From the NCBI GenBank assembly GCA_017524805.1, contig JAFXUX010000008.1, forward strand, positions 124,001 through 188,000: a stretch of 64,000 nucleotides of DNA, in the 5' to 3' direction. Below, piece after piece: positions 24,939 to 44,133 of the stretch. The stretch comes from Candidatus Methanomethylophilaceae archaeon (GTDB lineage Archaea > Thermoplasmatota > Thermoplasmata > Methanomassiliicoccales > Methanomethylophilaceae). Numbering within the stretch: the first letter of the stretch is position 1; each line of letters opens with the position of its first letter. The notes under the pieces are model-generated. The model made no database searches. It was not told where the DNA came from and saw only the letters and a list, made by a program, of their open reading frames with translations. The translations under genes were made by a program, and so were the position numbers.

Positions 24939-25730
24939 TCAGCCTTTGAAGGAACCGTAGAGCCTGACGGTATTGGCTCCGCGCTCGTCTTTCTCGAATT
25001 TGGCGTCTATTCCGAACACGATTCTCATGTTCTCTTCCGTGAGTATGTCTTCGGGCCTGCCCATGGCGAAAATGTTGCGGTCGTGAATGAGAACCATCCT
25101 GTCGCAGTAGCGGGCGACCATGGGAAGGTCGTGGGACACTATGACGACTGTGAGCCCCTTCTCGCGGGATAAGTCCCTGATCAGATCCAGGATCTCGAAT
25201 TGCATGTTGATGTCGAGATGCAGCGTGGGCTCGTCCATCAGGATGATGTCCGGGGATTGGGCTATGGCCCTGGCGATGATCGCCCTTTGCCTCTCCCCGC
25301 CGCTCATGGTGTTGATGTGGCGGTCGGCCATGTCCGAGATTCCGGTCTGCTCCATGGCTTCCTTTATTATGCGCTCGTCATCGGAGGTGAGGCCTCTCAA
25401 AGATTCCTGGAACGGCATCCTGCCCATCTCCACGATCTCTCTGACAGTGAATGCGAAGCGTATCTCGTTGGATTGCGGCACGACGGCTACTTTCTTGGCT
25501 ATATCCTTCTTTCTCATGTCAGCGATGTCGTCCCCCTCAATGAGGACGCATCCATGCTCTGGAGAGAGGTTTCTGTTGAGATTCTTGAGGAGGGTAGATT
25601 TCCCGCATCCGTTCGGGCCGAGTATCCCTAGTATCTCCCCTTTGCCGACGCTGAGGCTGATGCTGTCGAGGACTTTCTTCTCCCTGTAGGAATAGCTGAG
25701 TTCTTCGACATCCATTTTCCCGCTCACCAT
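24939..25730 (-). CDS. Iron-siderophore/cobalamin-type ABC importer ATPase
   Basis: A 263-residue FecE/BtuD-like ATPase: Walker A GPNGCGKST (near 38-46), Q-loop VVPQSNE, signature SGGERQRAIIARA, Walker B IILMDEPTLHLD and H-loop VSHDL. Start at 25730 follows GGAGGTG closely and overlaps the permease stop by seven bases; ATG 25715 is an alternative. Last gene of the binding protein-permease-ATPase unit. Confidence 0.93.
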   Translation of the reverse strand: MVSGKMDVEELSYSYREKKVLDSISLSVGKGEILGILGPNGCGKSTLLKNLNRNLSPEHGCVLIEGDDIADMRKKDIAKKVAVVPQSNEIRFAFTVREIVEMGRMPFQESLRGLTSDDERIIKEAMEQTGISDMADRHINTMSGGERQRAIIARAIAQSPDIILMDEPTLHLDINMQFEILDLIRDLSREKGLTVVIVSHDLPMVARYCDRMVLIHDRNIFAMGRPEDILTEENMRIVFGIDAKFEKDERGANTVRLYGSFKG

Positions 25731-26752
25731 CCCACCTCCTTTTTCCTGCTGCACAGAAGATAGATGAAGAACGGCGCTCCGATGATGGCTGTGACTATCC
25801 CTATCGGAAGGACGCCGAAGAACTGGGCGGCATAATGGGCTATGAAGTCGCACATCACCACGAAGGCTCCCCCGCCGACGGCCGACAGAGGAAGTATCAG
25901 GCGGTTGTCAGGGCCGAGGATCAGCCTTATCATGTGCGGTATGACCAGCCCGACGAATCCTATGGTGCCTGCGAAGCATACGCAAGCGGCAACGACGAGG
26001 GATGAGACGACGAGAAGGAACAGCCTGGTCCTTCTGACGTCGACGCCCAGGTCCATGGCATGGGCATCCCCAAGCATCATCGCGTTCAGGTTCATGGATT
26101 GGGTAAGCATCAGAGCGATTCCGATGAAGATTATCGGGAGCGCAACGCATATCTCATTCCATCCGGCATCTCCGAGGCTTCCCATGGACCAGAACACTAT
26201 GCTCCCCATCTTCTCGCTGGGCGCGACGTAGGTAAGGAACGAGACCAGCGCGGAGATCAGAGACGAGACAGCGACTCCGGCGAGGACCAATGTCTCGGTT
26301 TTCACCAGGCTTCCTCCGGAGCGCGATATTGTGTAGACCAGAACCATCGTCGCGAAGCACAGAACGAAGGCGGCCAGCGGCTGGGTGATTGCCATCGGGA
26401 TCAAGGATATCGGGAATATTATGGCCAATGCGGCTCCCAGAGACGCCCCAGAAGACAGCCCAAGGATGTAAGGCGTGGCCAGAGGGTTTCTGAACACCGC
26501 TTGCATCACGCCTCCGGTTACTGCGAGGCCGGCGCCTATCCCTATGCCGAATACGATGCGGGGGACGTTGTGCCCGTTGACGATGATGTCGTTGGCCCAC
26601 GTCCCATGGCCTAGGAGAGCATCCACGACTTCGGCGATCGAAAGCATTTCCTTCCCGGCGATGGAAAGGTCCAGGAAGACGAATATGAGGAGGAGGGCCA
26701 AAGATATGGCCATCACAATCAGCGACGATGCGATTCCGCGCTTAGCTTTCAT
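25724..26752 (-). CDS. FecCD-type ABC importer permease
   Basis: A 342-residue membrane protein of the FecCD/BtuC family with about ten helices and family motifs GVMQAVFRNPLATPYILG (near 80-98) and GFVGLVIPHMIRLILGPDN (near 268-287). It should form a homodimer with two copies of the downstream ATPase to move a metal chelate or corrinoid. Spacing of 28 bases to the binding-protein gene indicates a single operon. Confidence 0.95.
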   Translation of the reverse strand: MKAKRGIASSLIVMAISLALLLIFVFLDLSIAGKEMLSIAEVVDALLGHGTWANDIIVNGHNVPRIVFGIGIGAGLAVTGGVMQAVFRNPLATPYILGLSSGASLGAALAIIFPISLIPMAITQPLAAFVLCFATMVLVYTISRSGGSLVKTETLVLAGVAVSSLISALVSFLTYVAPSEKMGSIVFWSMGSLGDAGWNEICVALPIIFIGIALMLTQSMNLNAMMLGDAHAMDLGVDVRRTRLFLLVVSSLVVAACVCFAGTIGFVGLVIPHMIRLILGPDNRLILPLSAVGGGAFVVMCDFIAHYAAQFFGVLPIGIVTAIIGAPFFIYLLCSRKKEVGW

Positions 26753-26780
26753 TCTCCTCCTCCTTGTGTTTGGGTTCCGC

Positions 26781-27884
26781 TCAGGCCTTGTTCTTTTTCA
26801 GCTTGAAATAGAGGCCGATAAGGGCTAAGAGAAGGATCGCCGACATCGCAGCCGCGGCGTATACGATGTATTTCCCAAGGCCCTTGTCTTCGCTCGGCTC
26901 AGGGGCAGGTTCAGGAGCGGGCGTCGGCTCGGACGCATACAGCGCATTGGCGATCTCGGTGAGACCATCAGCAGATTCTGGGCACCAATTGTTCCACTGG
27001 AGGCCCATCGGGATGACTTTGATGGTCCTGTCTCCGGAGAACACTTCGTTGTAGAAGTCATCTAGAGTCTTCCCGGCGCTGAAGTATGAGTTGGACACGA
27101 ACACTACGGCATCTTTGTTGTTCTCCAGAAGCTTGGTTATGGCATTGACGTCGCCATATCTGGCGGCAGAATTCGAAGGGTCATATCCTATGTTGTTGGC
27201 CTTGCAGACGTCCAGCATCGATTTCATGATTCCGGTGTTGCCGATCTGAAGCGATTTGCTGTAATACCAGACGTAGAGCGCTTTGGGTCTGTCGGTTCCA
27301 TCGAAACTGGCCGCTTTGTCTTCCACGGCTTTGATCTTGCTCTTCATCGCAGTGATGGAGTCCGGGATGCTTCCGGATGCGATCAGCGAAACGTCCTCCA
27401 CCATTTTGACCAGATCGGAATAGCTTTCGATGGTATTCCAAACGAGGATTCTGGTGAATCCCTCTTTGCTGAGTTTTTCGCGGAGCTCGAGGTTGCTGGA
27501 ATAGCTGGTCAGGATGATGGTATCGTCGAGGGAGAATTTCCCGCTCTCCACCATCTTCACTATTGTCGTGATGATGTATTCGTGGTTGGTGGTCCCATAG
27601 AAGCTTTTGAGATCCTCGGCTCTGAGGTCCTTCAGCTCTTCGAATTTAGTGTATTCGTAGGTGGAATACATGTCGACTGCCACGATTTTGTCGACCGCTC
27701 CGGCATCGGCGATGGTGAGCGCGGTAGCGGATCCGTTGAGGATGATCTTGTCTTCGGCTTCCGCGTATTCGAAAGTCATTCCCGTCCCGTCGGTGACCGT
27801 GAATGCGGCTTCGGAATCCTCGGCGAGAATCGGCACCATGCAGATGGCAATGATGGCGATTGGTATCAGCATTATTCTGTTCAT
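26781..27884 (-). CDS. Metal-chelate ABC importer substrate-binding protein
   Basis: A 367-residue protein with a signal peptide (1-27), a class III periplasmic-binding fold (two lobes joined by one helix), a Pro/Glu-rich linker (about 325-340) and a C-terminal membrane helix (about 343-361), the usual archaeal way of tethering such proteins outside the membrane. DAGAVDKIVAVD and FVSNSYFSAG resemble FepB/BtuF-like lobes. First gene of the importer operon, behind a palindrome-containing promoter. Whether it binds a siderophore, haem or cobamide is not visible. Confidence 0.88.
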   Translation of the reverse strand: MNRIMLIPIAIIAICMVPILAEDSEAAFTVTDGTGMTFEYAEAEDKIILNGSATALTIADAGAVDKIVAVDMYSTYEYTKFEELKDLRAEDLKSFYGTTNHEYIITTIVKMVESGKFSLDDTIILTSYSSNLELREKLSKEGFTRILVWNTIESYSDLVKMVEDVSLIASGSIPDSITAMKSKIKAVEDKAASFDGTDRPKALYVWYYSKSLQIGNTGIMKSMLDVCKANNIGYDPSNSAARYGDVNAITKLLENNKDAVVFVSNSYFSAGKTLDDFYNEVFSGDRTIKVIPMGLQWNNWCPESADGLTEIANALYASEPTPAPEPAPEPSEDKGLGKYIVYAAAAMSAILLLALIGLYFKLKKNKA

Positions 27885-31899: not shown

Positions 31900-33102
31900 T
31901 CAGTTACCGAGGTTGGCCTGCCCTATGGCTGTGTCCAGATCTTTCTGCAGGGATTCCGGGAGACCGTTGATGCTTCCAGACAGGAAACCTTTCACGATCA
32001 TGCTGACGGCTTGGTCCTCATCCAGACCTCTGGACATTATGTACTCGATCTGATCCCTGGCGATCTTTCCGACGGCCGCTTCGTGGGTCATCTCCACGTC
32101 CGCTACGTGGGCTTCCAATTCGGGTATGGCCAAAGTGGATCCGCCGTCCTTCAGGATGATGCTTCTGCATTCCAGATGGGCTTTCACGCCCGGGGCGTTG
32201 CCTACGAGGCGGCCTCTGGCGCACATCTTCCCGCCCATGGAGATGCTTCTGCTCATGATCTCGGCCCTGCTGCCGAATCCGTTCAGGTTGACCATCCCTC
32301 CGGTGTCGATGTCCGATCCGGCATGTGCCAGGCACACGGTGTTGTATGTGGTGGACGCGCCCTCGGCGAGGTCTGCGGCGGGGAAGCTCTGGATGGATCC
32401 CACCGGGTTCAGGAGGATGTAGTTGTTGACGTAGTTGGAGTTCTTCCCGACGACGGTTTTCGTCCTCGGGCGGACGTTGGTCTTGTTGCCCCAGCTGTGG
32501 ACCATGGAGTAGGTGAGGTTCGCGTCGTCGCCGATGTACATCTCGGTGACTCCGACATGCAGCGAATCGTTGGCGTGGTGGGCGGTGGTGCACCCGGTGA
32601 TCATCTCCAGAGACGCGCCATCCTCCACGATGATGATGTTGTGGACGTTCTGGACCGTTCTGTTGGTCTTCAGAAGCATGCACGACTGCATCGGGGTCTT
32701 GATGTGGTATCCGGATTTGACGCGGACGAAGAAGCCGTCCCCATCTTCGAGATAGGTCTTGGCGGTGTATTTGTCCTTCGCGGGGTCCATGGCGTTCCAC
32801 ATGAAGTCTTTCAGGCCATCGTGTTTCTTGAGCGCCTCGCTGACGGACGTTACTTCCAAGCCTTCTTGGATCTTGGGGCTGCAATGGCTCATCCCGTTGT
32901 CGATGAACAACAGGCTTCCGGAGCGGGCCATCTCGTCCGCCACCACCCCGACCTGTTCCATATATCTTTTGTACTCGGAACTATCCAGATCGGATATCTG
33001 GTCGGCATCTTTGGAGCCCTCTTCGTACATTTCCAGGTCTATGTCTTTGCCGTAGGCGCCTTTCTTGTTCAGGGCCTCTTTAACCGAATCTCTGCCTGGC
33101 AT
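31900..33102 (-). CDS. sufB: SufB/SufD-family Fe-S cluster scaffold protein
   Basis: A 400-residue SufBD-family protein. With SufC it assembles Fe-S clusters; archaea usually have this two-gene minimal system. The conserved beta-helix core spans about 130-330 (IGDDANLTYSMVHSWG, then GGMVNLNGFGSRAEIMSRS), and the C-terminal region has HEAAVGKIARDQIEYIMSRG, matching the SufB/D end with the His and Glu used in the interface. It follows sufC by four bases. Confidence 0.92.
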   Translation of the reverse strand: MPGRDSVKEALNKKGAYGKDIDLEMYEEGSKDADQISDLDSSEYKRYMEQVGVVADEMARSGSLLFIDNGMSHCSPKIQEGLEVTSVSEALKKHDGLKDFMWNAMDPAKDKYTAKTYLEDGDGFFVRVKSGYHIKTPMQSCMLLKTNRTVQNVHNIIIVEDGASLEMITGCTTAHHANDSLHVGVTEMYIGDDANLTYSMVHSWGNKTNVRPRTKTVVGKNSNYVNNYILLNPVGSIQSFPAADLAEGASTTYNTVCLAHAGSDIDTGGMVNLNGFGSRAEIMSRSISMGGKMCARGRLVGNAPGVKAHLECRSIILKDGGSTLAIPELEAHVADVEMTHEAAVGKIARDQIEYIMSRGLDEDQAVSMIVKGFLSGSINGLPESLQKDLDTAIGQANLGN

Positions 33103-33106
33103 CGAA

Positions 33107-33820
33107 TCACTCCCCGTAGCCGTTCTGCTTTATGTTCCTCAGGAGGTCTGCGGGTTTTCCTGTGCGCTGGATGACCCCTTCCTTCATGACGTAGCCGCGG
33201 TCCGCGCCGATGTAATCCAGAATCTGTCCCGTGTGGGTAATCACGAGGGACGACACGTGCCTCGCCGAGCCGGAAGCGGAGTCGAAGAGCAGATCCTTCA
33301 CTTTGTTGCCGATGAGGTCGATGCTCTCCAGATCGACGCCCGATTCAGGCTCGTCCAGGAGTATGAATTCCGGCTTCTGGGCCGTAAGCTGGAGTAGCTC
33401 GGACCTTTTTATCTCTCCGCCGGAGAAACCGACGTTGATGTCTCTCTCCAAGAACTCCCCCATCTTGAAGTTGGAAGCCTGGTCCAAGACATCTTTGTTT
33501 TTGGCGGAGGCTTTCACGAGATCGCCGAGCTTCACCCCGAAGATGTTGGGCGGCCTCTGCATCATCATGCCTATCCCAAGCCTGGCGCGCTCGTCCACGC
33601 TCATGCCAGTGATGTCCTGCCCTTTGAAAAGGATCTTTCCCTCGGTCACTTGGCATGTGCTGTAGCCCATGATGGTGGAAAGGAGCGTGGATTTACCCGA
33701 ACCGTTCGGCCCGAACAGAACGCATGTCTCACCTTCTTCGACCGTCAGGTTCACTCCTTTTAGGATCTCCCTGCCGCCCGCTTCGGCGTGGAGGTCCGCA
33801 ATTCTCAGCATCTCGGTCAT
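33107..33820 (-). CDS. sufC: SufC Fe-S assembly ATPase
   Basis: A 237-residue ABC-type ATPase with Walker A GPNGSGKST (near 35-43), the SufC-specific Q-loop MMMQRPPNIFGV, signature FSGGEIKRSELLQL and Walker B FILLDEPESGVD. It powers the SufB scaffold in the cytoplasm. Start 33820 is supported by GGAGATTCA directly upstream. First gene of the sufCB operon. Confidence 0.96.
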   Translation of the reverse strand: MTEMLRIADLHAEAGGREILKGVNLTVEEGETCVLFGPNGSGKSTLLSTIMGYSTCQVTEGKILFKGQDITGMSVDERARLGIGMMMQRPPNIFGVKLGDLVKASAKNKDVLDQASNFKMGEFLERDINVGFSGGEIKRSELLQLTAQKPEFILLDEPESGVDLESIDLIGNKVKDLLFDSASGSARHVSSLVITHTGQILDYIGADRGYVMKEGVIQRTGKPADLLRNIKQNGYGE

Positions 33821-33930
33821 TGAATCTCCTGCGTTCCCTATATCAAATTGATACTTAAACCCGCATTCTTGATGCGCCAAAAAAGCCTGCGATACAGCAG
33901 TTATTTTTATCGAATGCCGTATGCGCTGGC

Positions 33931-34512
33931 ATGAAGGTCATCGCGCTCAACGGGAGCCCGCGTCCGCTCGGGAACACAAGCAACATTCTGAACGAGGTCC
34001 AGGATGAGTTCGAGAAGGAAGGGGTGGAGTTCGAGATCGTCCACCTTTATGAGTACCAGTTCGCCAACTGCAACGTCTGCCTCACCTGCGAGATACGCGG
34101 CGACGGCAGATGCATGGACGAGGACGATGGCTTCAATCCTCTGCTGAACAAGCTCCGCGCCGCCGACGGCTTGCTTCTGGCCGCCCCATCCTATGCGGGA
34201 GCGTGCCCCAGTGTCATGCAGACTTTCCTGGAGAGGGCGCAGCTCGTTTTCGAGAAGGGGGATCTGGGATTGAGAGGCAAGGTCGGAGGGGCCATCGCGG
34301 TCCATTCCCATCAGGGAGGCTCGCTGGTATTCAACCAGATGGTGGATTTCATGCTAAACAACTGCATGATCGTGGCCGGCTCCAATCCGCTTCCGATAGT
34401 GCGTGCGCTCAACTCGCCTCAGTATTCGGACGACGTCTCCGGAATGAAGGGCGTAAAATCCCTTGTCGCAAGCATGGTCTCCGCGCTGATGCGCCTGAAT
34501 GGGTACGAATGA
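33931..34512 (+). CDS. NADPH-dependent FMN reductase / iron-sulfur flavoprotein
   Basis: A 193-residue flavodoxin-fold protein: the FMN phosphate loop LNGSPRPLGNTSN (near 5-17) and a Cys cluster CNVCLTCEIRGDGRC (near 48-62), the compact motif that binds a 4Fe-4S cluster in archaeal Isf proteins, though the spacing here should be checked. Such proteins move electrons from ferredoxin to oxygen or other acceptors. The gene is divergent from sufC. Confidence 0.88.
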   Translation: MKVIALNGSPRPLGNTSNILNEVQDEFEKEGVEFEIVHLYEYQFANCNVCLTCEIRGDGRCMDEDDGFNPLLNKLRAADGLLLAAPSYAGACPSVMQTFLERAQLVFEKGDLGLRGKVGGAIAVHSHQGGSLVFNQMVDFMLNNCMIVAGSNPLPIVRALNSPQYSDDVSGMKGVKSLVASMVSALMRLNGYE

Positions 34513-36871: not shown

Positions 36872-36913
36872 CATATAAAAAGGGGATGCAGGATATAGCA
36901 TCCAGTGAGTTCC
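36872..36913 (+). promoter_or_regulatory. TATA box and palindrome before the nitrogenase-like operon
   Basis: CCATATAAAAAG (36871-36882) is a good archaeal TATA box. Just after it lies the inverted repeat GGATGC-8-GCATCC (36884-36903), at the expected transcription start, where a bound repressor would block initiation. GTGAG stands five bases before the ATG at 36914. Confidence 0.5.
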
Positions 36914-39049
36914 ATGTTCCAGGTCGCGATTTATGGCAAAGGAGGCATCGGGAAATCCACGATGGCCGCCAACATCTCCTATTCCCTCGCTTCGCGCGGC
37001 CGCAAGGTCATGCAGGTCGGCTGCGATCCGAAGCACGATTCGACGCGCCAGCTGCTGGGAGGAAGGGCGCAGACCACCGTTCTCGATTACGCCCGCTCCG
37101 TCCCGGTTCTGAAGAGGAAGCTGGAGGACGTGATAGAGACCGGCGCCGGAGGGGTCATCTGCGCAGAGGCCGGAGGCCCAGAGCCCGGAATAGGATGCGC
37201 CGGACGCGGGATTCTCACGACTTTTGACACGCTGAAGAAGCTGGGCGCGGATTCCCTGGATGTGGACATAAAAATCTATGATGTTCTCGGGGACGTGGTG
37301 TGCGGCGGGTTCGCCGTTCCTCTGAGGGGGGAATATGCTGATGCGGTCGTCTTGGTGACTTCCGGGGAGTTTATGTCCATGTACGCCGCGAACAACATCA
37401 TGAAAGGGCTCTCCAATTTCGATACCGGAAAGCCCCGTCTGCTCGGGATGATACTGAATTGCCGCGGGGTGGAGCACGAGCTGGAATCGGTCGGGAGGTT
37501 CGCTGAAGCGGCGGGCGTCCCGATAATCGCCGTCATACCCCGCGACTACTCATTCAGGGAAGCAGAGGCGAAAGGAGCCACCGTCCGCGAGCTGTTCCCA
37601 GATTCGGACATCTCCGCGAGGATAGATTCCATCGCCGACGCTATCTCCCAGGCGTCAGATGGCAAGGCCGAGCTTCGCTACCCCCATCCTCTGGACGATC
37701 TCCAGCTCACCGATCTGGCCGCCGGAAGGGAGATACGCCCCGGTTCAGGGGAATCCCAGCCGCGAGTGGCCTGCTCCGGATGCGGGCGCAGAACGTCCAT
37801 CAAAGGGACGAGGATAATGAGCTCCTGCGCCGCATATGGGGCGGTAGCCGCCTTCACCAGGCTTACTGATTACACGGTACTGATCCACGGCCCGCGGAGC
37901 TGCATGTATCTGATGGACATGTCCCGCGGGAGCATATCGATGAAGCTCCATTCCAAAGGGGCGTACGATACCTTGCCTACGCACAATCTCCGCTGCACCA
38001 TGATGGACGATTCCGTGTCCATATTCGGCGGTGTCCGCCTTCTGGAGGAATCCTTGGAGGAATCGATTTCGGAGGGATGCGATAAGATAGCCGTGGTCAC
38101 CGCCTGTATGCCGGGGATAATCGGCGATGACAGCGTCGGGGCGATCGAGAAAGTTTCTTCGAAGCATCCGGGCACGGAAATATGCTGCATCCAAACCGAC
38201 GGGGACGTTGCCGGATCGTTCGACGAGGGCATGGCGATTGCTTCCGAGTTCATCTGCGGGCTGATAGACGCATCTGTCAAGCCGGAGCGCGGGCTGGTCA
38301 ATCTCGTGTCTTATTCGTTCTTCAACATCGAATCCAGCAGGTATCGGAGCGAGCTTGGGCGCATCCTATCCCTGTTCGGGCTGAGCGTCAACTGCAGGTT
38401 CCTGGATGAGACCACGTCCGAACGCGTCAGGGACTTCTGCAGGGCTTCAATCGACCTTCTGGTATCCGGGGACAAAATGACCGCCGGGATGATGGCGTCG
38501 ATATCGGAGCGCACCGGCAGAAAACCGTTCCCGCTTCCCCTGCCGGTAGGCATGAGACAATACTCCGAGTGGCTTCGTCTCATGGGCGAGACCTTGGGCA
38601 TGGAAGAGGCCGCAGAAACGGAGCTCAAACGCGCAGAAGAGGAGTACGGCAGGTTCTTGGCAGATCACAGGCACCGTTTCGAAGGCAAGAAAGCTATAGT
38701 ACTGAACAGGAGAGGCGACTGGCTCGCGGAGCTTCTGGACGATCTCGGGGCCGAGATAGTCCGCATGGGGATGATGTCCGGGCTTCCGCGGACGTATACT
38801 ACCTCGTCCGATCGCTTATCCAGCAGGATCACGGAGGATTACTCCTGGGAGATGCTGGCCGAAGACCTCAGGCAATTCGATCCCGACCTTCTGATCTCAG
38901 ATCTTCCATATCCAGTGATGGGGAGGTGCAGGGTCGCCAGGACAAGGAAGGTCGGCATCGGGATCATAGGCGCCATGGATTATGCCGTCTATCTGGAGAA
39001 CGTCATGAGGCTCCCTCCTACGGAGGGCTGGAAGGAGGCCGTGAAATGA
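36914..39049 (+). CDS. Nitrogenase-like NifH-NifD fusion protein
   Basis: A 711-residue fusion. Residues 1-265 are a NifH/BchL-type ATPase: P-loop GKGGIGKST (8-16), and the two 4Fe-4S ligands as GIGCAGRG (Cys95) and LGDVVCGG (Cys130). Residues about 285-711 are NifD-like, with three Cys at P-cluster positions: CAAYGA (Cys305), GPRSC (Cys330) and ACMPGIIGDD (Cys398). The FeMo-cofactor Cys/His pair is not evident, so this is not a true nitrogenase. It is coupled (ATGA) to the NifK-like gene. It differs from CfbC/CfbD of F430 synthesis, which are separate and lack a K-like partner. Natural fusions of the H and D parts are unusual. Start ATG 36914 is preferred to GTG 36905. Confidence 0.88.
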   Translation: MFQVAIYGKGGIGKSTMAANISYSLASRGRKVMQVGCDPKHDSTRQLLGGRAQTTVLDYARSVPVLKRKLEDVIETGAGGVICAEAGGPEPGIGCAGRGILTTFDTLKKLGADSLDVDIKIYDVLGDVVCGGFAVPLRGEYADAVVLVTSGEFMSMYAANNIMKGLSNFDTGKPRLLGMILNCRGVEHELESVGRFAEAAGVPIIAVIPRDYSFREAEAKGATVRELFPDSDISARIDSIADAISQASDGKAELRYPHPLDDLQLTDLAAGREIRPGSGESQPRVACSGCGRRTSIKGTRIMSSCAAYGAVAAFTRLTDYTVLIHGPRSCMYLMDMSRGSISMKLHSKGAYDTLPTHNLRCTMMDDSVSIFGGVRLLEESLEESISEGCDKIAVVTACMPGIIGDDSVGAIEKVSSKHPGTEICCIQTDGDVAGSFDEGMAIASEFICGLIDASVKPERGLVNLVSYSFFNIESSRYRSELGRILSLFGLSVNCRFLDETTSERVRDFCRASIDLLVSGDKMTAGMMASISERTGRKPFPLPLPVGMRQYSEWLRLMGETLGMEEAAETELKRAEEEYGRFLADHRHRFEGKKAIVLNRRGDWLAELLDDLGAEIVRMGMMSGLPRTYTTSSDRLSSRITEDYSWEMLAEDLRQFDPDLLISDLPYPVMGRCRVARTRKVGIGIIGAMDYAVYLENVMRLPPTEGWKEAVK

Positions 39050-40311
39050 GGAGTCTCCCTGACGGTTTCAACGGCGCCATCATGGCCGTGGAGAGCATAG
39101 ATGATGCCGTCGCATTCCTGCACGGGCCCGGAGGCTGCAGGGTGAGGCATATGGTGCATTCCAGCGCTGTATATCCCAGGATGGCACCGGGGTCCGACGA
39201 GGATTGGTTCGGTCCCTATTATTATGGATATCCTCGTGTGCCGGCGACGTATCTGGACGAGTACGATTTCATCAACGGGGCCTTCTACAAGCTGGACGAG
39301 GCTCTGCCGATAATCGCCGGAAAGAAGCCGTCGCTGATAGTCGTCATCAATTCTCCGGGCGCCGCGCTGATCGGGGACAATATAGAGAAGGCGATCAGGG
39401 ACAACGGAATGGAAGACGTGGCGATATACATGGACGAATCCCTGGTCTCCATGCCGGTCACCGAGTGCTATGGCCACATGATGAGGGCGATAATGAGGCA
39501 CCTCTCCCCGAAAAGGGGCGTGGTCAGGCCCGGGACCCTGAACATATTGGGTCTGTCCCTTTTGGACAAGGACTGGGCCGCGGCCAGGGATGAGCTGTGC
39601 GGATACGCCGAATCAATGGGTCTGGAGGTCATCTCGACTCCCGGGGCAGGCGCTTCTGTGGCCGATCTTATGGCGTCGGCGGATGCAGAGTTCAACATGG
39701 TGGTATGCCCGGAGATGTGCGCCGGGCTCACGGAATATTACGAGTCGCTCGGGATCCCGACGGTCCGTTCACCGGCAGGGGCCCCTGTCGGTTTCTCGGC
39801 CGTCAGGGAATGGATAACGGCGCTTGCCAGAGCGTCCGGGAGGGACCCGTCGCCAGCGCTGGAGAAGGTCCGCAAGGCCGAGAGGGCGGTATACGATAAG
39901 CTGTCAGGAATGAGGTACATGCCGCTGAGGATCAGGGCACTTTCGTTTTCCGCAGCGGAGACGGCTTCCGTCGTCAGGCCTCTGACGGAGTGGCTGTACG
40001 GATATCTCGGGATGATCCCGATTGCGGTCGCGGTCGATCCCGGCTCGGATGCCGGCGAGATATCCGCCCTGAAAGGTTTCCTGGATTCCCATGGCATGGG
40101 CGATGCGTTCGGTAAGGAGCCGGTCGAAGGCAGCGATGTCGTCCTATGCGAGGGCGTCACGGCTAACACCATGGCCATGCGCGGATGCATCGGGATACCG
40201 ATAGGCCATTCGGGCAGCGGATTGGACGACATGATCCCCCGTCCCATATACGGGATCCAGGGGGCCAGATACATACTCGATGAATTGGTCCACGGCGTCA
40301 GAGGGTCATGA
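39046..40311 (+). CDS. Nitrogenase-like NifK/BchB-type subunit
   Basis: A 421-residue component-1-like protein that starts in the middle of the classical cluster region. Of the three P-cluster Cys positions, the first is Asn9 (FNGAI), the second is kept as GPGGC (Cys31), and the third is Ser in INSPGAALIGDN. With three Cys in the D-like part this gives a 3+1 pattern as in chlorophyllide reductase, predicting one 4Fe-4S cluster between subunits. The C-terminal part ends PIYGIQGARYILDE, as in NifD/K proteins. It ends shortly before a hairpin. Confidence 0.82.
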   Translation: MRSLPDGFNGAIMAVESIDDAVAFLHGPGGCRVRHMVHSSAVYPRMAPGSDEDWFGPYYYGYPRVPATYLDEYDFINGAFYKLDEALPIIAGKKPSLIVVINSPGAALIGDNIEKAIRDNGMEDVAIYMDESLVSMPVTECYGHMMRAIMRHLSPKRGVVRPGTLNILGLSLLDKDWAAARDELCGYAESMGLEVISTPGAGASVADLMASADAEFNMVVCPEMCAGLTEYYESLGIPTVRSPAGAPVGFSAVREWITALARASGRDPSPALEKVRKAERAVYDKLSGMRYMPLRIRALSFSAAETASVVRPLTEWLYGYLGMIPIAVAVDPGSDAGEISALKGFLDSHGMGDAFGKEPVEGSDVVLCEGVTANTMAMRGCIGIPIGHSGSGLDDMIPRPIYGIQGARYILDELVHGVRGS

Positions 40312-40366: not shown

Positions 40367-41122
40367 TCATATTTTCTTGGTTTTCAGGAGATAGATATCC
40401 ACCGCGAAGAACGCGACGGCGAACGCCAGCAGCACAACGAGGGATATCCAGGGGAAATCCAGATAATCCGGGAGCGCAGCGGCTCTTATTATTTCGCTGG
40501 CGTGGGTCAGCGGCAGGCAATACAGGATCGCCTGGAATACCGGGTTCAGAGAGCTGACCGAGAAGAACGTGCCGCAAAGGAACGTCATGGGCAGGATGAT
40601 CAGGCTGTTCAGGGTTGCCATCGTCTGGTGGGATTTGGCCATCAAAGCGACGGCAACGCCCAGAAGCGAGAACGCGACGCACGAGAGTATTATGCAGATT
40701 ATTATCATCGGCGAGAGGACGAGCTCCGGCGCAAGGAACAGGCCCAGCGCGTAAAGCAGGAAGCAGCTCAGCATCCCTCTCAGGAGCCCCAGGACGCATT
40801 TGCCAAGGACGATCGATGACAGGCTCAGCGGGCACATCATCATCTCGTCGAAGCTTTTGTAATAGAGCCTCTGGACGTTCATCCTGGTCGCGCTGGCCGA
40901 GAACGACGACGACAGCGACGACAGCGCCGCGATACCGGGAATTACGAAGGCGACGTATGAGACCCCTATGTCGGTCTCGCCGGTTCTGAGCCCGTATCCG
41001 AAAGCTATGAGATACAGGAGCGGGCTCATGATGCTCATCACGAGGATGTTCAGGAAGTTGTGCTTGAAGAACATCAGGTCTCCCCAAGCCACGTGGAACG
41101 TATCGACAAGGAGGTTGCTCAT
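40367..41122 (-). CDS. NodJ-like ABC-2 exporter permease (copy 1)
   Basis: A 251-residue permease with six helices, containing LYLIAFGYGLRTG (near 37), VIPGIAALSSLSSSFSAS and PLTHASEIIRA, typical of the NodJ/DrrB group that exports lipo-oligosaccharides, drugs or lipids. It overlaps its ATPase gene by four bases. It is a paralogue of the permease at 43381, sharing the PMTFLCGT-F segment. Confidence 0.9.
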   Translation of the reverse strand: MSNLLVDTFHVAWGDLMFFKHNFLNILVMSIMSPLLYLIAFGYGLRTGETDIGVSYVAFVIPGIAALSSLSSSFSASATRMNVQRLYYKSFDEMMMCPLSLSSIVLGKCVLGLLRGMLSCFLLYALGLFLAPELVLSPMIIICIILSCVAFSLLGVAVALMAKSHQTMATLNSLIILPMTFLCGTFFSVSSLNPVFQAILYCLPLTHASEIIRAAALPDYLDFPWISLVVLLAFAVAFFAVDIYLLKTKKI

Positions 41123-41973
41123 GTCTGCGCCCCCACGCTCTTGCCGGTAAGCTCTACGAACACGTCTTCCAGATTGGTCTTCCTTATGGAGACATCCCCT
41201 TCTTTGGTGGCCGCGAATTCCTTTGCTTCATCTCTGTCTTTGAAGTATCTGTATACCGTCTTGCCGCCTTCCGAATACTCCACCGCAGTCGATCCGACTT
41301 TATCGCAGAGGACGCGGGGCTCGTCCAACGCTATGATCTTCCCTTTGTCGATGATTCCGACCCTGTCGCAGAGGGATTCGGCCTCTTCGATGTAATGGGT
41401 GGTCAGTATGATGGTGGTGCCTTCGGCATGCAGTTTCCTGATGATGTCCCAAAGAAGGCGGCGCGCGTTGATGTCCAGACCCGATGTCGGCTCGTCCAAG
41501 AACAATACTTCGGGGTTGTGGAGCATAGCGCAGACGATGGCCGCCCTTTTTTTCCATCCTCCGGAGAGCGAGTCCACGGGTTTGTCCAGATATTCTTCCA
41601 AGCCGAAGAAATCGGTGAGCTCGGCTATCTTTTCCTCGCGCTCCTTCTTCCTGATGTCGTGGTACATCGCGTGGGAGATCATGTTCTCGCGGATGGTTAG
41701 GTCTTTGTCCAAGGAGACCTGCTGCTGGATGACCCCCATGCACATTTTGGCGGCCGAAGGCTCTTTTTTCACGTCGTGCCCTCCCACCTTTATGGAGCCT
41801 TCATCGAATCCGGTGAGCGTCGCCACGCATCTCAGCGTAGTCGTCTTCCCAGCGCCGTTCGGCCCCAGAAATCCGAAGAGCTCCCCTTTATGGATGCTCA
41901 GGTCGAGGCCGTTCACGGCGGTTTTATCCCCGAACCGCTTAACCAGACCTTTTATCTCGATTATGTAGTCCAT
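41119..41973 (-). CDS. NodI/DrrA-like ABC exporter ATPase (copy 1)
   Basis: A 284-residue ATPase: Walker A GPNGAGKTTT (near 35), QQQVSLDKDLTIREN, signature LSGGWKKRAAIVCAM, Walker B VLFLDEPTSGLDINAR and H-loop TTHYIEEAE, diagnostic of the DrrA/NodI group. The C-terminal 70 residues form the group-specific domain. First gene of the minus-strand exporter operon, divergent from the AbrB-like gene and second exporter. Confidence 0.93.
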   Translation of the reverse strand: MDYIIEIKGLVKRFGDKTAVNGLDLSIHKGELFGFLGPNGAGKTTTLRCVATLTGFDEGSIKVGGHDVKKEPSAAKMCMGVIQQQVSLDKDLTIRENMISHAMYHDIRKKEREEKIAELTDFFGLEEYLDKPVDSLSGGWKKRAAIVCAMLHNPEVLFLDEPTSGLDINARRLLWDIIRKLHAEGTTIILTTHYIEEAESLCDRVGIIDKGKIIALDEPRVLCDKVGSTAVEYSEGGKTVYRYFKDRDEAKEFAATKEGDVSIRKTNLEDVFVELTGKSVGAQT

Positions 41974-42466: not shown

Positions 42467-43384
42467 ATGGCGACCAACCCGTCGAAGAAAGCCCCCATTC
42501 CGGAAGGTATCTCCGATTGTTCCCCTTCCCCGGAGAATGATGCGATAGTCTCGGTGGAAGGCCTAACCATACGTTTTGGGAGCTTCACAGCGGTGGACGG
42601 GCTGACGTTCGGCATAAGGCGCGGCGAGGTCTTCGGTTTCCTGGGTCCGAACGGGGCCGGGAAGACGACCACGATACGCGCCATAACAACCATCCAGAGG
42701 CCGACGTCCGGGAAGATAACCATAGATGGGCACGATTCCGCCACCGATTATCTGGAGGCCAGGAAATGCATCGGGATAGCCCAGCAGCACATCAGCCTCG
42801 ACAAGGACCTGACGGTCAGGCAGAACATAAAGTACCATGCCATGCTCCACAAGATTCCCAAGGACGTAATGGAGCTCAGGATAAAGGAACTGTCCGATGT
42901 CCTCGGCCTCGGCGAGCATATGGACAAGATGATTGCCGATCTCTCAGGAGGGTGGAAGAGGAAGGCGGCCATCGTATGTTCTGTGCTCCATGAGCCGTCC
43001 ATCCTGTTTCTGGATGAGCCTACGGCCGGTTTGGACACCCAATCGCGCCATCTTCTTTGGGAGCTGGTCCGCACCCTCAACTCAAGGGGCACGACGATAT
43101 TCCTGACCACGCATTACATAGAGGAAGCCGAATCGCTGTGCGACAGGGTGGCCATAATAGACAGGGGCAAGATGTCCGCAATAGGCACCGTCGACGAGCT
43201 CAAGAGTCTGATCGGCGGCACCACTGTCGAGGTGACATGCGGGAACAAGGTGGAAACGCACCACTTCGCGTCGATGGAGGAAGCCAGGGCATTCGCAGAC
43301 GGCATCAAAGATTCTTACATCAACATCAGGATGACGACGCTGGAGGACGTTTTCCTGGCGGTATCCGGAGGGAGTCTAAGATGA
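42467..43384 (+). CDS. NodI/DrrA-like ABC exporter ATPase (copy 2)
   Basis: A 305-residue ATPase with Walker A GPNGAGKTTT (near 62), AQQHISLDKDLTVRQN, signature LSGGWKRKAAIVCS, Walker B ILFLDEPTAGLDTQSR and H-loop TTHYIEEAE. It is a close paralogue of the ATPase at 41119, with a 25-residue N-terminal extension rich in Pro and Ser. Operon with the next permease (ATGA overlap). Confidence 0.93.
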   Translation: MATNPSKKAPIPEGISDCSPSPENDAIVSVEGLTIRFGSFTAVDGLTFGIRRGEVFGFLGPNGAGKTTTIRAITTIQRPTSGKITIDGHDSATDYLEARKCIGIAQQHISLDKDLTVRQNIKYHAMLHKIPKDVMELRIKELSDVLGLGEHMDKMIADLSGGWKRKAAIVCSVLHEPSILFLDEPTAGLDTQSRHLLWELVRTLNSRGTTIFLTTHYIEEAESLCDRVAIIDRGKMSAIGTVDELKSLIGGTTVEVTCGNKVETHHFASMEEARAFADGIKDSYINIRMTTLEDVFLAVSGGSLR

Positions 43385-44133
43385 TCCTCTGGGATATCAT
43401 AGACGAATCCTATCGCGTCGCTTGGGGCGATCTCTGCTATATCAAAGGGAACCTGGCCGAGACCGTATTGACCGGGATAGTGGGGCCGCTACTGTACCTG
43501 CTGGCCTTCGGATACGGGATAGGCGGAAGCATGGGCGGAGGCCAGGATTACATCGTTTTCATCGTGCCCGGGATTATAGCTCTCACAACCCTTTCGGCGA
43601 CCTTCAGCACTGTATCGATGAAGATCCTGGTGCAAAGGCTGTTCTATATGAGCTTCGACGAGATGCTCCTCTGTCCGATACACATAGCGTCGGTAGTGAT
43701 CGGGAAGACCTTGTCGGGTGTGATACGCGCTCTGATCAGCTGCACGATAATAATGCTGGTCGGCCATCTCATCGCCCCTGACGTCTCGCTTTCGCTGTGG
43801 GCTTTCCTTCTGGTGATATGGGCGTCGTTCATGTTCTCGCTGCTCGGCCTTCTGGCGGGGATGGCGGTGAACAAGACCAACACCCTCTCGCTGATATCGA
43901 GCATGGCGATAGTGCCGATGACGTTCCTTTGCGGGACCCTGTTCAACGTTTCGGCGCTTCCGGGTTGGGCTGCGGCCGCCATTTACGTGCTTCCGCTCAC
44001 CCACGTAAGCCAGCTGTCGAGGGCCATCATGCTGGATATGGCGATCCCATTGGATTCGATCGCGATGATGGTCGCGTATACCGCCGTTTTCTTTGCGCTC
44101 TGCTGGGCGATGATAAAGACGAACAGGTGCTGA
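43381..44133 (+). CDS. NodJ-like ABC-2 exporter permease (copy 2)
   Basis: A 250-residue permease with six helices, paralogous to the one at 40367: both open with VAWGDL, share LLYLLAFGYG, MSFDEMLLCP and PMTFLCGTLFNVS. It pairs with the upstream ATPase. Its TGA is immediately followed by the stop of the convergent HAD gene with no spacer. Confidence 0.9.
   Translation: MILWDIIDESYRVAWGDLCYIKGNLAETVLTGIVGPLLYLLAFGYGIGGSMGGGQDYIVFIVPGIIALTTLSATFSTVSMKILVQRLFYMSFDEMLLCPIHIASVVIGKTLSGVIRALISCTIIMLVGHLIAPDVSLSLWAFLLVIWASFMFSLLGLLAGMAVNKTNTLSLISSMAIVPMTFLCGTLFNVSALPGWAAAAIYVLPLTHVSQLSRAIMLDMAIPLDSIAMMVAYTAVFFALCWAMIKTNRC

Follow-up and report, generated by a model that had tools for sequence, protein, structure and literature searches.

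What does a nitrogenase-like enzyme act on when its reductase and its catalytic subunit are fused in one chain? This question is raised by a pair of genes in a Candidatus Methanomethylophilaceae archaeon (contig JAFXUX010000008.1, positions 124,001 to 188,000; this stretch of 64,000 nucleotides is called the window below), whose closest named relatives are rumen Methanomethylophilaceae metagenome-assembled genomes (MAGs). The first gene joins a NifH-type domain (H) to a NifD-type domain (D), and the second encodes a NifK-like protein (K); the pair is referred to as HD-K. On a judgement only slightly better than even, HD-K is a cofactor-less, ATP-driven reductase resembling COR and DPOR, probably of an imported metallo-tetrapyrrole, perhaps a corrinoid, that serves salvage or remodelling. 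Gene context and the pattern of cluster ligands lead us to infer this function, including its substrate, activity and direction.

The substrate is known for only a small number of nitrogenase-like enzymes, and HD-K constitutes a distinct, multi-copy clade in animal-gut methanogens. The fusion of reductase and catalytic subunit is an architecture without functional description in the literature searched, and full-text searches found no functional study of it. A 'fused nifH/nifE' was listed in 2014 in a table of replication-origin boxes of Ca. Methanomassiliicoccus intestinalis (PMC4153887); this neighbour of a replication-origin box probably belongs to the HD-K family, but is a table label given without analysis.

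The HD fusion gene and its K partner

A sequence-only reading of the window had described one gene combining a complete NifH-type ATPase with a NifD-type domain and coupled to a NifK-like gene, and its coordinates, motifs and five cysteines proved exact. The features of the locus are as follows.

36914..39049, + strand: HD fusion gene, 711 amino acids from the ATG, with Pfam and NCBIfam matches; open in many relatives
36920..37723, + strand: NifH-type ATPase domain, with the P-loop GKGGIGKST, Cys95 and Cys130 ([4Fe-4S] ligands) and Asp38, Asp42, Asp123 and Asp127
37751..37819, + strand: H-D linker, residues 280-302, predicted to be disordered (pLDDT <50)
37826..38905, + strand: NifD-type domain, with Cys305, Cys330 and Cys398, and Ser at the FeMo-cofactor ligand position
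39046..40311, + strand: NifK-like gene, 421 amino acids, Oxidored_nitro match (E 7.8e-36), a single cluster-type cysteine (Cys31)

An alternative GTG start at 36905 would give an open reading frame of 714 amino acids (36905..39049). Pfam assigned residues 6-273 of HD to Fer4_NifH (E 9.9e-87) and residues 308-667 to Oxidored_nitro (E 3.6e-51), and the HD stop codon (39047-39049) overlaps the start codon of K (39046) in an ATGA. The P-loop, both cysteines and all four aspartates of the H domain are invariant among 21 relatives, as are Cys305, Cys330 and Cys398 (ATG numbering) of the D domain. With a NifH-type P-loop ATPase bearing two [4Fe-4S] cysteines and paired Oxidored_nitro subunits, HD-K belongs to the nitrogenase-like superfamily, where it forms a separate clade.

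The absence of nifB, nifE and nifN from the window, also claimed earlier, was confirmed. Oxidored_nitro matches occur at just five places in the genome, namely HD and K of the window, a second HD and K on another contig (C41) adjoining an ABC importer, and CfbD; a NifB homologue is encoded elsewhere (C46).

The HD query found matches in 119 of 147 Methanomassiliicoccales genomes, and 90 genomes were counted as carrying the fusion at a threshold of E <1e-80, a few of them by contig-edge fragments, while the weaker matches were CfbC alone. A genome may hold up to six copies (G091), at 35-89% identity. Beyond the order, the fusion was found in one SAR324 and two Syntrophomonas assemblies, all of them MAGs. 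An assembly artefact was ruled out, since HD is open across many genomes including finished chromosomes, and its reading frame runs without a stop through the single-contig genomes G072, G073, G078, G031 and G035. The proposed search for further fusions and their surroundings revealed a widespread, multi-copy gene with recurrent importer and CobN company. On one chromosome (G024), a stretch of 18 kb holds three HD-K pairs (L133:1640-19414), with importer and MATE genes between them.

Five related HD genes contain an in-frame TAG (L056:5968-8103, L124:8540-10678, L122:8319-10400, L127:8239-10326 and L141:8953-11100), at query positions 279, 285, 548, 583 and 485, respectively. Methanomassiliicoccales use pyrrolysine, and these codons may be read through; TAG codons occur likewise in several CobN genes. 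A pyrrolysine switch at the H-D junction was considered and rejected, because only two of the codons belong to the linker, the other three being part of D, which gives no consistent junction signal.

Cluster ligands and predicted fold

The ligand positions were compared across 57 aligned D sequences and 52 aligned K sequences. At the three P-cluster-type positions of D, cysteine was present in 52/57, 57/57 and 57/57 sequences, and the FeMo-cofactor cysteine position was unconserved. In K, only the second position was cysteine (52/52), and Asp or Pro stood where NifK has its other cysteines. BchY and BchZ displayed the identical pattern of three plus one cysteines in the same alignment, whereas BchB had Asp. 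This pattern predicts one [4Fe-4S] cluster per D/K half, the arrangement found in COR and DPOR, with neither a P-cluster nor a carbide cofactor. Three cysteines in D, one in K and no cofactor cysteine therefore argue against N2-type chemistry and for [4Fe-4S] chemistry of the COR/DPOR kind.

Chlorophyllide a reductase (COR, BchXYZ), a tetrapyrrole reductase, shares with HD-K the D-type subunit with three cysteines, the K-type subunit with one, the lack of a cofactor cysteine and an ATP-driven H protein; it differs in that its H protein is unfused and in that HD-K has H, D and K clades of its own. The host, a methanogen, is not known to make bacteriochlorophyll. Dark-operative protochlorophyllide reductase (DPOR, BchLNB) has three cysteines in BchN, and by TM-score its BchB is the nearest structure to the K model (AlphaFold2, pLDDT 87; TM-score 0.80-0.82), although by E-value NifEN and NifK outrank BchB; DPOR differs from HD-K in the Asp of BchB, in being encoded by three separate genes and in belonging to another clade. 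The HD model (AlphaFold2, pLDDT 80) contains a NifH-like domain matching NifH structures with a TM-score on the target of about 0.88. A sequence search of the PDB returned distant relatives only (NifE, VnfD, NifD, MarD and BchB).

Phylogenetic placement

All 57 fusion H domains formed one clade with an SH-aLRT support of 99 (99/98 when fewer sequences were analysed under a mixture model). The fusion D domains formed one clade (100/100), as did the fusion K proteins (100/100), and in one tree the K protein from the SAR324 fusion locus was the sole outsider within the K clade. The D and K clades are separate from NifD/E, NifK/N, BchN/Y, BchB/Z, CfbD and the group IV proteins of heliobacteria, Geobacter and gut bacteria, while CfbC falls in a different H clade together with gut-bacterial H proteins. 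Nif and Bch were represented by one reference organism each, the group IV sequences (heliobacteria, Geobacter and others) were unlabelled, and the deep branching among nitrogenase-like clades was poorly supported.

Within this sampling, HD-K was placed inside none of the CfbCD, DPOR or COR clades; for Mar the comparison is weaker, the trees containing no labelled Mar or Isr sequence. No grouping with BchX, BchY or BchZ (one reference each) was found. HD-K lies outside the DPOR clade and has Cys rather than Asp at the K position in 52/52 sequences, and neither the H nor the D domains joined CfbC or CfbD, HD moreover having a K partner. The sequence-only reading had called HD-K a nitrogenase-like reductase of unknown substrate. 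The separate H, D and K clades bear out a nitrogenase-like enzyme outside the known clades; the view of the substrate needs revision, as the neighbouring genes point to tetrapyrroles.

Gene neighbourhoods and co-occurrence with CobN

The surroundings of 61 HD loci were compared within 10 kb using a simple gene caller, so that gene calls are approximate, and each neighbour family takes its name from a single representative (Pfam, NCBIfam). At 36 of the 61 loci, at least one of FecCD/BtuC, a substrate-binding protein (SBP), CobN, ChlI/D or CbiZ was present. By family, the counts were 37 for a BtuD-type ATPase, 23 for FecCD/BtuC, 22 for an ABC-2 exporter permease, 22 and 9 for substrate-binding families 38 and 45, 13 for CobN, 6 for ChlI/D and 3 for CbiZ. 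The representatives were identified as CobN (2e-229), a ChlI-type ATPase, CbiZ, FecCD and Peripla_BP_2; family 38, which has no Pfam match, was called a binding protein from its gene position. Three loci (L143, L145 and L146) have the order BtuF-BtuC-BtuD-CbiZ-ChlI-ChlI-HD-K with a convergent CobN, and an independent bacterial instance, the SAR324 locus, reads FecCD-ABC-HD-K-CobN-SBP-FecCD-ABC.

CobN lies at most 20 kb from 18 of 42 HD copies (24 genomes), against 2.7 expected by random placement, and none of 200,000 simulations reached the observed proximity. Among the 147 genomes, 80 contain both the fusion and CobN, 53 neither, 10 HD only and 4 CobN only (Fisher p 9e-25), and their association also holds inside at least seven genera where both states occur. 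CbiZ was found at most 5 kb from 9 of 154 HD copies (1.3 expected). Orthologues of the window gene in eight other genomes are all (8/8) located 9-20 kb from CobN. In the host genome, two tandem CobN genes stand beside two ChlI-like genes (L159, G000:C30:60000-79999). The linkage to importer, CobN, ChlI/D and CbiZ genes therefore suggests an imported tetrapyrrole as the likely substrate.

In gut Bacteroidota, the CobN relative HmuS takes iron out of heme; what CobN homologues do in archaea has been described as unclear (PMC12583661). HmuS and BtuS resemble the HD-K context in that a CobN-type protein takes part in gut tetrapyrrole uptake; HmuS, however, needs NADH and no nitrogenase-like reductase, and offers a model of a potential HD-K partner without being a relative of HD-K. 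HD-K would connect, in a way that can be tested, nitrogenase-like enzymes with the numerous archaeal CobN homologues of unclear role (PMC12583661).

Unfused H/D/K relatives in gut bacteria

Gut Bacillota and Spirochaetota encode, like HD-K, a three-part nitrogenase-like enzyme beside SBP-FecCD-ABC importers, but from separate genes, with H grouping with CfbC and D and K falling in other clades. Of 31 such loci, 19 have an SBP, 21 FecCD and 26 an ABC ATPase (a family that includes other ABC ATPases), and about 20 sit with SBP-FecCD-ABC. In Phascolarctobacterium faecium, a cobalamin riboswitch (L084:5477-5668, 108.8 bits) is followed on one strand by a TonB receptor, an SBP, H-SBP-FecCD-ABC-D-K, ChaN, which binds haem, and another TonB receptor, of the B12 type. 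With a gap of 165 bases 5' of H, the H, D and K genes are likely co-transcribed from this riboswitch. A related locus carries ExbB-ExbD-TonB immediately 5' of H. As a general marker of H/D/K loci the riboswitch was rejected and is a lead only, being found at one of 34 bacterial loci scanned.

Proposed mechanism

In the mechanism that we favour, the H domain would bind MgATP and, paired with another H domain, share a [4Fe-4S] cluster held between the two, as its motifs suggest. D and K would form a catalytic (DK)2 core with one [4Fe-4S] cluster per half, held by three cysteines of D and one of K. Electrons would pass, as in the family at large, from the H cluster to the D/K cluster and on to the bound substrate, with ATP hydrolysed at each step. 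The substrate would be an imported metallo-tetrapyrrole, perhaps a corrinoid, in keeping with the observed linkage to BtuFCD/FecBCD, CobN, ChlI/D-like and CbiZ genes, and reduction of its ring may serve tetrapyrrole salvage, remodelling or metal release.

NifH works as a dimer sharing one cluster, and a 1:1 fusion of H to D therefore needs two HD chains for each H2. The two chains that form the H2 dimer would belong to the same (HD-K)2 or to adjacent complexes; judging from the family, tethering would then allow only one docked H2 at a time per complex, or link neighbouring complexes. It can fairly be inferred, as the sequence-only reading had proposed, that the fusion would fix the H:D stoichiometry, and nature has here set up a test of the Fe-protein cycle, namely whether a tethered H can dock and undock. 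Should HD-K handle corrinoids or heme, it would bear on the cofactor supply for the methyltransferases of gut methanogens.

More speculatively, and with a rather low likelihood, HD-K could form with CobN/ChlI-D, CbiZ and BtuFCD a hitherto unrecognised anaerobic pathway, in which reduction of the corrin or porphyrin ring of scavenged cofactors enables metal removal or exchange and H dimers form between fused subunits. Such a pathway would add further nitrogenase-like tetrapyrrole chemistry, performed for salvage rather than synthesis by a self-tethered reductase.

Weighing the alternatives

Several observations weigh against tetrapyrrole reduction. The p-values for HD and CobN are too small because close relatives share ancestry, and no CobN match was obtained in ten of the genomes with HD. 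CbiZ occurs in most Methanomassiliicoccales genomes regardless of HD. FecCD-type importers are common in these genomes (up to 29 per genome) and carry siderophores too, a difference that sequence alone cannot reveal. Some HD loci have no tetrapyrrole-type neighbours at all, including both Syntrophomonas loci, where the adjoining transporter is of a zinc/manganese type. The rarity of the cobalamin riboswitch among the bacterial loci counts on the same side. For the window copy itself, CobN, ChlI and CbiZ were not found within 10 kb, and the CobN pair of the host lies on a different contig.

There is some room, though not much, for a role of HD-K in iron uptake with no tetrapyrrole involved, in which it would reduce a ferric siderophore or another metal chelate brought in by the importers, or activate its release. 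FecCD/SBP/ABC importers, by sequence indistinguishable from siderophore systems, are the commonest neighbours, and SUF genes and a flavin reductase adjoin the window HD-K. Iron uptake, however, leaves the tetrapyrrole genes and sites (CobN, ChlI/D, CbiZ, ChaN and the cobalamin riboswitch) unexplained, and the reduction of metal chelates does not normally require an ATP-driven nitrogenase-like enzyme. Equally unlikely in our estimate is that HD-K, with CobN and ChlI/D, builds a new reduced metallo-tetrapyrrole cofactor, i.e. that it serves synthesis instead of salvage. Known biosyntheses do pair a chelatase with a nitrogenase-like reductase, as in BchHID with DPOR/COR and CfbA with CfbCD (PMC7242693); the hosts have several CobN copies, and many HD-K pairs adjoin ABC-2 exporters. 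But the recurring importers and CbiZ indicate uptake and salvage, and the copy number of HD varies widely among close relatives, unlike that of core biosynthesis genes.

Cleavage of C-S or other small-molecule bonds for sulfur assimilation, in the manner of MarHDK or IsrHDK, is improbable. The superfamily is shared and the host genome has a NifB homologue; yet NifB is present in most Methanomassiliicoccales genomes with or without the fusion, so that it proved uninformative about any NifB dependence of HD-K. Mar carries a P-cluster and [Fe8S9C] (PMC12552129), whereas HD-K lacks the K cysteines for the former and a cofactor cysteine; Isr has one ligand cysteine in D and three in K, the reverse of the three and one aligned in HD-K. 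A radical SAM gene is absent from the recurring neighbours, and HD-K has its own H, D and K clades, in trees without labelled Mar or Isr sequences. There is very little to be said for HD-K being an additional enzyme of the CfbCD type that serves coenzyme F430 synthesis. CfbCD is likewise a methanogen enzyme of the [4Fe-4S]-only type that reduces a tetrapyrrole ring, and CfbC is the best-scoring NCBIfam model of the H part, albeit below its cut-off. CfbC and CfbD are, however, separate proteins of other clades, CfbD has no K partner, and HD is absent from many methanogens of the Methanomassiliicoccales. The host also has its own canonical F430 cluster on contig C8, with cfbC, CbiX-like, Mur-ligase-like (cfbE-like), cfbD and cfbB-like genes together (the labels CbiX-like and cfbE-like were assigned from gene order and start sequences), so an extra CfbCD copy is largely excluded. 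Finally, a nitrogenase, which the complete H domain and the NifD/NifK-like domains might suggest, was rejected with near certainty: the P-cluster ligand set, three cysteines in each of D and K, is incomplete, with one cysteine in K throughout, the position of the nitrogenase FeMo-cofactor ligand Cys275 lacks a conserved cysteine, and NifE and NifN were not found in the genome.

Neighbours of the window copy and further nitrogenase-like loci

Around the window HD-K, the following genes were assigned.

24939..27884, - strand: FecCD/BtuC-type permease, ABC ATPase and an upstream protein of 367 amino acids without Pfam match, about 9 kb upstream of HD-K
31900..33880, - strand: genes for a SufB-like protein and SufC, which act in Fe-S cluster assembly, upstream, kept in 11 HD-K loci
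33931..34512, + strand: FMN reductase or flavodoxin-fold protein, a recurring upstream neighbour
40367..41122, - strand: ABC-2 type permease, convergent with HD-K and kept in about 20 HD-K loci (Pfam and neighbourhood comparison)
41119..41973, - strand: ABC ATPase, partner of the ABC-2 permease (Pfam and neighbourhood comparison)

Two pairs of ABC ATPase and ABC-2 permease genes stand back to back beside HD-K (40367-41973 and 42467-44133), apparently a duplicated exporter.

In five gut-bacterial H/D/K clusters (L065, L067, L068, L075 and L111), a different ABC transporter family replaces BtuFCD, which suggests another substrate. In Methanothrix/Methanosarcinales, unfused D-K-H genes adjoin CobN and several large family-38-like proteins (L109:2579-10882 and L113:2045-10628), and appear to represent a further nitrogenase-like clade with similar neighbours.

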